This document shows, one piece after another, positions 51,529 to 53,522 of a DNA stretch of 64,000 bases. Origin of the DNA: an uncultured bacterium. Lineage in GTDB: Bacteria > Myxococcota_A > Bradymonadia > Bradymonadales > Bradymonadaceae. A model generated the notes under the pieces. It was not told the origin of the DNA. It saw nothing but the letters and a program-made list of their open reading frames with translations, and ran no database searches. Within the stretch, counting starts at the first letter, position 1, and each line of letters begins with the position of its first letter. The stretch is from contig CALJNB010000014.1 in NCBI GenBank assembly GCA_937981985.1, positions 1 to 64,000 on the forward strand, in the 5' to 3' direction. The translations under genes were made by a program, and so were the position numbers.

Positions 51529-52098
51529 ATGAATGAAATGAAAGTTCAAATGTCGGAGCTCGCTGAGAATGCGAAGTTGGCGCTTCATTTCGACCTCAAC
51601 ACCGATTGTGTTTCGGAGATGTTGGCCGACACCGGTTACGAGGGCGAAAATGCAGAAGCGGAAGTTTCGGTCGAACGAGTCGGAAGTTCCAGCGACTTTA
51701 GATTGAGTGTTGATATTAAGTTTGAAGTTCGTTTTTTGTGTGGTAGATGTTTAGAGCTGAAGAACGAAAAATTTGATGGATATTCGAAATTCGTTTTGAT
51801 GCCAAAGTCGAATTTATCAGCGCGGTCAAACGCTAACGATGAAATCGAATTAGAGCCCGCAGATTTAGACGTTGTTTTTCACGATGGTGAGTCAATAGTA
51901 TTAGAGCCGTTGGTTCGAGAGGCGATGCTTGAAGCGTTGCCGACGCACAATCTTTGTTCGGAAACGTTTTCGGATGAATGTCGTGAAAGTTTTGAAAAGA
52001 ATATCGGTGAGTCCGCTGCTAAAGACCTCGAGATTGCTCAGGTTGATTTGCGTTGGGGACCACTTTTAAAGTTAAAGAAGAATCTTAAAAAGGATTAG
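51529..52098 (+). CDS. yceD: YceD/DUF177 family protein
   Basis: The track start is 51493, but the ATG at 51529 follows GGAGGT at 5 nt, giving 189 residues (MNEMKVQMSELAENAKLALHFDLN...). The DUF177 core is KFEVRFLCGRCLELKNEKFDGYSKFVLMP followed by acidic residues. YceD is widely encoded just upstream of rpmF, as here, and has been linked to 23S rRNA accumulation. The C-terminus (DLRWGPLLKLKKNL) matches the family tail. Confidence 0.88.
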   Translation: MNEMKVQMSELAENAKLALHFDLNTDCVSEMLADTGYEGENAEAEVSVERVGSSSDFRLSVDIKFEVRFLCGRCLELKNEKFDGYSKFVLMPKSNLSARSNANDEIELEPADLDVVFHDGESIVLEPLVREAMLEALPTHNLCSETFSDECRESFEKNIGESAAKDLEIAQVDLRWGPLLKLKKNLKKD

Positions 52099-52101
52099 AA
52101 A

Positions 52102-52299
52102 ATGGCAGTTCCAAAGAAAAGAAAATCGAAATCGAAAACGCGTACGCGTCGTTCGTACAACAGAAGAATGACGGTTGTACAATCCCATCCGTGTCCTCAC
52201 TGTGCCGAGCCCAAGCGAGCGCATCGCGCATGTGGGGCATGCGGTAAGTACGGTTCTACGGCAAAGCCTGAGGAAGTAATTGAGGTTTGGGAATACTAG
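52102..52299 (+). CDS. rpmF: 50S ribosomal protein L32, zinc-binding form
   Basis: 65 residues: MAVPKKRKSKSKTRTRRSYNR, then a four-Cys ribbon CPHC...CGAC (the last Cys of each pair present), so the zinc-dependent form. It ends EEVIEVWEY. It overlaps nothing and is followed immediately, without a spacer, by the ACP-RpiB fusion gene. Confidence 0.95.
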   Translation: MAVPKKRKSKSKTRTRRSYNRRMTVVQSHPCPHCAEPKRAHRACGACGKYGSTAKPEEVIEVWEY

Positions 52300-53049
52300 A
52301 TGTCCCTTTCGAGCGCTGATTCGGAAAGCCTTCGGTTAGCGGTCTACGCTGCGATAAGTAGCGTGCTCGAAATTCCTCCCTCAGAAATTTTTCCTGAGTC
52401 CGATTTTCTTAGTGACTTTGGTGCTTCAAGTTTAGATATCGTAAACTTGATCTGGCATATTGAAGAGAAATTTAGTCTCCCTGAAGCCAGCGAGACTGAA
52501 TTAGAAGGTCTCTGTTGCGTTCAGGATCTTGTCGACCTTGTCTTAAAAAAAGCACCCGGGTCGGTTTTAGATAACAAGGACAGACCCAAAAATATGAGGT
52601 TCGCTATCGCGTCCGATCATGCTGGGATTCAACTCAAGTCGTTGATCCTAAATCAGCTAAAGGACATGCAATTCGAAGTGGAAGATTTGGGTCCCCAAGA
52701 AGGCACTTCGGTAGATTACCCCAATTTCGCTGAGAAGGTTGCAAAACAGATACAAGCGAGCTCCGTCGATCTGGGAATACTAATTTGTGGGACCGGTATC
52801 GGTATGTCGATCGCCGCAAATAAATTTGCCGGTGTTCGAGCTGCGCTTTGTTCAGATCCTGTTTCAGCGAAATTTACCCGGCTTCATAATGACGCTAATA
52901 TCTTGTGTCTAGGTGCAAGAATCATAGGTCAAGAGATCGCCATGGAATGTGTACGTCAGTTTGTAGATACCAATTTTGATGAAGGCGACGATTCGCGACA
53001 TCAGCGCCGATTGGATCTTGTTTCAGCCTTAGAATCCCCTAAAAAGTAG
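52300..53049 (+). CDS. Acyl carrier protein/ribose-5-phosphate isomerase B fusion
   Basis: 249 residues in one uninterrupted frame. Residues 1-~88 are an acyl carrier protein: EIFPESDFLSDFGASSLDIVNLIWHIEEKF, with the Ser of GASSLD as predicted phosphopantetheine site (canonical DSL reads SSL). Residues ~98-249 are RpiB: MRFAIASDHAGIQLK, the catalytic-Cys stretch GILICGTGIGMSIAANK and a complete C-terminus. RpiB interconverts ribose- and ribulose-5-phosphate. In other genomes rpmF is followed by plsX/fabH and acpP. Internal initiation at the Met near 52594 is possible but has no Shine-Dalgarno. An A7 run near 52548 makes an indel worth excluding. Confidence 0.85.
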   Translation: MSLSSADSESLRLAVYAAISSVLEIPPSEIFPESDFLSDFGASSLDIVNLIWHIEEKFSLPEASETELEGLCCVQDLVDLVLKKAPGSVLDNKDRPKNMRFAIASDHAGIQLKSLILNQLKDMQFEVEDLGPQEGTSVDYPNFAEKVAKQIQASSVDLGILICGTGIGMSIAANKFAGVRAALCSDPVSAKFTRLHNDANILCLGARIIGQEIAMECVRQFVDTNFDEGDDSRHQRRLDLVSALESPKK

Positions 53050-53057
53050 CTAATAAA

Positions 53058-53522
53058 ATGCGTTGTCCCTATTGCGCTTTCCTTGAAGATAAAGTCATCG
53101 ATTCCCGTCCTGGTAAGGACGGCCGTTCAATACGTCGGCGCCGGGAATGCCAAGCCTGTCATGAGCGTTTTACGAGTTATGAGCGTATCGAAGAATCGTT
53201 TCCAATGATCGTTAAGAAAGATAAAACGCGCGAAGAATATAATCGTGACAAACTTCTTGGTGGGATAAAAATCGCTTGTAATAAGCTGCCAATAAGTACT
53301 CAACGTATCGATGAAGTGATTTCAAATATCGAACGAAAGCTTATTGAAGAGAGTGCGAGTGAGGTTACTGTTGAGTTTCTTGGAACTACAGTTATGGAGG
53401 CACTGCGGGGTTTAGATCCGGTTGCCTATATTCGATTTGCGAGCGTATATAGAGAATTTGAGGGAATCGAAGAATTTCTGAGGGAGCTTAATCGGATGGA
53501 ATCCGAAGCGGAATCGGAATGA
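53058..53522 (+). CDS. nrdR: Transcriptional repressor NrdR
   Basis: 154 residues, with the zinc ribbon MRCPYC...RRRRECQACHERFTSYERIE and ATP-cone (PMIVKKDKTREEYNRDKLLGGIKIACNKLPIS). NrdR senses ATP/dATP and represses ribonucleotide reductase genes. Being next to ribD is a common arrangement. Its stop overlaps the ribD start (ATGA). Confidence 0.95.
   Translation: MRCPYCAFLEDKVIDSRPGKDGRSIRRRRECQACHERFTSYERIEESFPMIVKKDKTREEYNRDKLLGGIKIACNKLPISTQRIDEVISNIERKLIEESASEVTVEFLGTTVMEALRGLDPVAYIRFASVYREFEGIEEFLRELNRMESEAESE

Follow-up and report, generated by a model that had tools for sequence, protein, structure and literature searches.

The acyl carrier protein (ACP) and the ribose-5-phosphate isomerase B (RpiB) encoded at 52300..53049 of the window (the whole stretch of 64,000 nucleotides analysed here, from an uncultured member of the Bradymonadia, Myxococcota) are joined in one open reading frame. 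The same in-frame fusion occurs in 23 of 57 compared genomes of the class, most of which are incomplete drafts. By comparison of the sequences, the fusion is old, inherited and common to many species. The best explanation, which as a whole we regard as fairly probable, is that the contraction of an operon made the gene fusion, and that, in the window's family, the RpiB half is still an active isomerase and the ACP half still carries acyl groups. No description of an ACP-RpiB fusion was found in the open-licence literature that was searched.

The fused gene, its distribution and its operon

The frame of 249 codons begins on the base directly after the rpmF stop codon, in agreement with the position given in the initial annotation. 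The features of the region are as follows.

51529..52098, + strand: yceD, conserved upstream neighbour (PF02620; synteny)
52102..52299, + strand: rpmF (L32), directly upstream of the fusion (PF01783; synteny)
52300..53049, + strand: fused gene for ACP, linker and RpiB, 249 amino acids (open frame; PF00550 and PF02502 above cut-off)
52342..52539, + strand: acyl-carrier (PP-binding) domain, residues 15-80 (PF00550; Foldseek match to ACP structures)
52429..52431, + strand: Ser44, predicted phosphopantetheine attachment site, with Ser43 before it (alignment; invariant in 23 fused sequences)
52540..52602, + strand: interdomain linker, including an A7 run at 52545-52551 (lower confidence in the predicted model; frame kept in G001)
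52603..53016, + strand: RpiB domain, residues 102-239 (PF02502, TIGR01120; Foldseek match to RpiB structures)
52786..52788, + strand: Cys163, aligned with Cys66 of E. coli RpiB (alignment)
52978..52992, + strand: loop with a 3-residue insertion, seen in the RpiBs of families f1, f2, f4 and f6 (alignment)
53058..53522, + strand: nrdR, downstream, followed by ribD and other riboflavin genes (PF22811 and PF03477; synteny)

PF00550 matches with 31.3 bits against a gathering cut-off of 20.8, and PF02502 with 186.3 bits against 24.7. With both domains above cut-off and with Ser44 and Cys163 in the aligned positions, the frame does hold a full ACP with a modifiable serine and a full RpiB with its cysteine, as first proposed. 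The predicted structure consists of two confident domains and a weaker linker (mean pLDDT 91.3).

The domain layout is common to 22 other genomes. In all, the fusion is present in 17 genomes of the window's own family (f1), in all five of f2 and in the one f6 genome, including the single-contig assemblies G005 and G011 and the isolate Lujinxingia vulgaris TMQ2 (G018). It sits at the same operon place across these genomes, as judged by synteny, which rules out a frameshift or an assembly error as its source. The suggestion to look for the fusion in relatives was thus fruitful, and both of the proposed refutations fail, as the halves are not separated by an indel and homologues are not in every case encoded as two genes. 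Other f1 genomes have a divergent RpiB only (G003, G015) or an RpiB without ACP (G008), and in G009 the locus ends at the contig end. G008 is Bradymonas sediminis FA350, with a published genome of 5,045,683 bp (PMC7188933); it has an unfused RpiB at the ancestral place and a second, divergent RpiB (L044, L045). Outside the class, there was no unbroken fusion among the matches listed for 379 genomes of the phylum, and the nearest arrangement is that of G138, with a stop codon between the halves.

In f3 and f7, as far as the contigs extend, the gene order is (yceD)-rpmF-plsX-...-acpP-fabF-rpiB-(nrdR)-ribD. In one f3 genome (L047 of G029), nrdR directly follows fabF, where relatives have rpiB. 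The acpP and rpiB genes form one frame in f1, f2 and f6, downstream of yceD-rpmF in f1 and f2, and the order in f4 and G008 is yceD-rpmF-rpiB-nrdR, with no ACP. Canonical FabF above cut-off is restricted to genomes of f3, f7 and f8, and no fused genome has a TIGR03150 match above cut-off. The absence of FabF from every fused genome agrees with a published account, according to which Bradymonabacteria are without FabB/F and FabI/L (PMC7460792).

In G138, which belongs to another family of the phylum, the order is rpmF-acpP-TAA-9 nt-ATG-rpiB, with acpP and rpiB in the same reading frame; the acpP carries the canonical ADS motif, and fabF is missing from the arrangement. This locus (L241:5760-6940, - strand) has the arrangement that would be expected just before such a fusion, one stop codon away.

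An operon-driven gene fusion had been considered in the initial annotation, and the separate acpP-fabF-rpiB genes of the sister families, the fused genomes without fabF and the acpP-stop-rpiB order in another lineage all speak strongly for it. The comparison shows that the ancestral run was yceD-rpmF-plsX-...-acpP-fabF-rpiB-nrdR-ribD. With the loss of fatty-acid synthesis in this part of the Bradymonadia, plsX through fabF vanished from the run with the exception of acpP, which thereby became the neighbour of rpiB. In a state like the one seen in G138, the two genes would then have shared a frame with one stop between them, and loss of the stop would have created the single protein.

The 3-residue insertion precedes the GRH active-site motif and is a mark of the aligned RpiBs of f1, f2, f4 and f6, the ACP-less f4 included. 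The RpiBs of these four families are also set apart by a branch with 91/83 support, in a tree from which Cys-less long branches and divergent copies were left out. The shared insertion and this branch fit the simplest reading of the sequences, which is that the fusion arose once and that f4 and G008 later lost the ACP half. When the long branches are retained, five label changes are required on the tree, so a second origin of the fusion in f6 is possible.

The isomerase half

The RpiB half scores 172.7 bits against TIGR01120, above the equivalog cut-off of 138.65. According to the alignment, it has Cys163, the equivalent of the catalytic Cys66 of E. coli RpiB, as well as Asp106-His107 (DH motif) and the active-site His196. 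The active-site residues are also kept in the alignment of the fused f1 RpiBs. In fold, equivalog score, catalytic cysteine and active-site residues, the window protein is thus similar to known RpiBs (E. coli 1nn4/2vvr, T. maritima 1o1x). In contrast to them, it has an N-terminal ACP domain and the 3-residue insertion before the GRH motif, and three of its f2 relatives are without the catalytic cysteine.

No f1 genome, the single-contig G005 and G011 included, yielded an rpiA gene (many f1 genomes are incomplete). In the 17 fused f1 genomes, PF02502 has a single match each, namely the fusion itself, and G005 and G011 show this pattern as well. Apart from the fused RpiB, no ribose-5-phosphate isomerase was detected in any of the 17. 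The absence of rpiA and the single PF02502 match per genome suggest that the RpiB half is probably the isomerase of the f1 cell. It would then be an active enzyme, and as the only isomerase detected, it would require that the fusion stay translated. Bradymonabacteria other than B. sediminis FA350 have been reported to be without key steps of ribose-5-phosphate synthesis (PMC7460792). FA350 has an unfused RpiB and a second one, and so the fused RpiB has perhaps been missed in the other strains. Their reported deficiency may therefore be an annotation effect.

The situation is different in f2, where rpiA is present in G021, G022, G023 and G025. In G021, the active site of the fused RpiB is kept. 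In the other three (L032:1486-2214 in G022, L041:2918-3649 in G023 and L030:1498-2238 in G025), all of them drafts of one family with contamination of up to 7%, the fused RpiB has no catalytic cysteine and is changed at other active-site positions too, so that it does not carry the RpiB residue set. Mycobacterial RpiB uses an alternative catalytic glutamate, but none of the three proteins has a glutamate at the aligned position. For the G023 protein, two domains are still predicted with confidence (mean pLDDT 90.1). In the Cys-less lineage, dN/dS reaches 0.51-0.60 for the RpiB half and is 0.28-0.40 for the ACP half. In f3, whose genes are unfused, rpiA is present in G029 and G051, but rpiB has no match in either.

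In the presence of rpiA, a Cys-less RpiB is thus kept where it is fused, whereas the unfused rpiB is gone. It appears that a dead RpiB, which would have vanished on its own, has survived through the fusion, whether because the carrier depends on it or because it is hard to remove. It is conceivable, and we suggest it tentatively, that after the arrival of rpiA the dead RpiB fold was recruited as scaffold or oligomeriser of the carrier, whereas unfused rpiB was lost. The more general view, that the fusion itself was selected because the RpiB fold is a scaffold, oligomerisation platform or stabiliser for the carrier independent of catalysis, appears rather unlikely. It would explain why the Cys-less proteins keep a confident fold and the linkage, and why rpiB is missing from G029 and G051, but the dN/dS of the Cys-less RpiB half also fits slow decay, and the argument draws on only three draft genomes. 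Moreover, ACP and RpiB can separate, as G008 and f4 have RpiB without ACP.

The carrier half

Ser44 corresponds in the alignment to the phosphopantetheine serine with which helix II begins; it is invariant in all 23 fused ACPs, as are Asp39 and Glu55. The ACP half has dN/dS values of 0.09-0.43, with synonymous sites near saturation in several pairs, and by this measure it is under purifying selection. The GASSLD motif noted at the outset does contain the modifiable serine, but the serine before it stands at the place of an aspartate in canonical AcpP (GADSLD). This aspartate of the DSL motif is lost in all 23 fused ACPs, which have Ser, Thr or Asn instead (Ser43 in the window), whereas the unfused AcpPs of f3, f7 and f8 keep it. 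In addition, most fused ACPs have a tryptophan at the position of E. coli Met44. The window ACP falls below the curated AcpP cut-offs (39.5 against 70.45 bits for TIGR00517, 46.1 against 71 bits for NF002148), and the fused ACPs of f1 and f2 are likewise below the cut-offs for AcpP of type II fatty-acid synthesis (FAS II). No canonical AcpP was found in f1. With AcpP of FAS II, the fused ACP shares the four-helix carrier fold, the attachment serine and an ancestral place in the rpmF-plsX-acpP-fabF operon. It differs in its scores, in the lost aspartate, in the lack of FabF from the genome and in being joined to RpiB.

In E. coli ACP, the D35N change abolishes IscS binding (PMC13343975). By analogy, loss of the DSL aspartate has probably shifted partner recognition in the fused ACPs. 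It also means that charging by a phosphopantetheinyl transferase (PPTase) is not certain. A PPTase match is present in 21 of the 23 fused genomes, and the window genome has matches to the PPTase family. A switch from AcpS to an Sfp-type enzyme was considered as the reason for the loss. The standalone enzymes of f1 and f6 look Sfp-type by eye, but that of G021 (f2) looks AcpS-type, so that the switch does not account for all cases.

The lost aspartate, the low FAS II AcpP scores in f1 and f2 and the fact that G008 and f4 manage without the domain could mean that the ACP half is an uncharged relic, a mere N-terminal extension of an essential RpiB. We consider this improbable in view of the three invariant residues, the low dN/dS and the PPTase matches, and because the ACP is the better conserved half in the Cys-less genomes.

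The hosts of the fusion are predatory bacteria without normal fatty-acid synthesis. The likeliest job of the ACP half would be residual acyl transfer, for example through PlsX. Ser44 would be charged with phosphopantetheine, and the ACP half would carry acyl groups for the remaining lipid reactions, such as the acyl-phosphate/acyl-ACP exchange by PlsX on prey-derived fatty acids. Since RpiB enzymes form dimers or tetramers, the carrier would be displayed on an oligomer. Our best guess is that the carrier would move acyl chains from prey into lipids. Within f1, f2, f4 and f6, the fusion co-occurs with plsX, fabH and PPTase, in raw counts that are uncorrected for kinship and threshold-dependent. 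In four fusion genomes (G004, G005, G016 and G031), plsX lies outside the ribosomal-protein operon and adjoins a gene for an APP1-type phosphatidate phosphatase (L218:6888-8985, L219:7245-9371, L221:6132-8238, L222:6845-8960). However, the search for plsX found nothing in the genus of the window or in G007 and G010, so that PlsX can account for no more than a part of the carrier's role. A works-like comparison may be drawn with AcpB of Enterococcus faecalis, described as an atypical auxiliary carrier beside the main one that is connected with exogenous fatty-acid handling (PMC6509188). The putative fatty-acid carrier discussed here differs from AcpB in its fusion to RpiB, and in f1 there is no canonical AcpP for it to stand beside among the proteins found.

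LpxA was discarded as a partner of the carrier, as no f1 match exceeded the cut-off. FabH matches above or near cut-off are present in many fused genomes, in f1 mostly beside a protein of about 200 amino acids without a family match, but no function emerged from this neighbourhood. The other small ACPs examined in G005 and G000 adjoin their own ketosynthases or a fatty acyl-AMP ligase and for this reason look pathway-specific, not like replacements.

A regulatory link, in which the acylation state of the ACP would tune the isomerase and couple lipid supply to pentose-phosphate flux, is in our opinion quite improbable. The two halves are conserved jointly in 23 genomes and the ACP surface has changed consistently, at the DSL aspartate and mostly at the Met44 position. 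However, the linker is of variable length and sequence and its prediction is less confident, and G008 and f4 do without the ACP half. Metabolic coupling between the halves is not needed to explain the facts.

Integrity of the fusion and implications

It is very improbable that two separate proteins are made, with RpiB translated from an internal start codon. There is an in-frame ATG at codon 99 in the window, and some relatives have GTG codons with an SD-like sequence near the domain boundary, but in 7 of the 23 fused genes a scan of the 24 codons that precede the RpiB DH motif revealed no ATG, GTG or TTG. An internal start is thus not conserved across the fused genes. A sequencing or assembly error in the A7 run of the linker, against which the initial annotation had cautioned, can be practically dismissed, since the independently assembled G001 of the same genus has no homopolymer there and its ACP still runs in frame into RpiB, as do the halves in the single-contig assemblies and the isolate.

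The path from operon contraction to gene fusion is traceable within one phylum, in which separate, adjacent with one stop, fused, ACP-less and catalytically dead states are all represented. The most interesting part is the contrast between the Cys-less RpiBs that are kept in the fusion and the unfused rpiB that is missing. For the Bradymonabacteria, the fusion may correct a published conclusion about ribose-5-phosphate synthesis (PMC7460792). Finally, it poses the question of what job an acyl carrier has in bacteria without normal fatty-acid synthesis.
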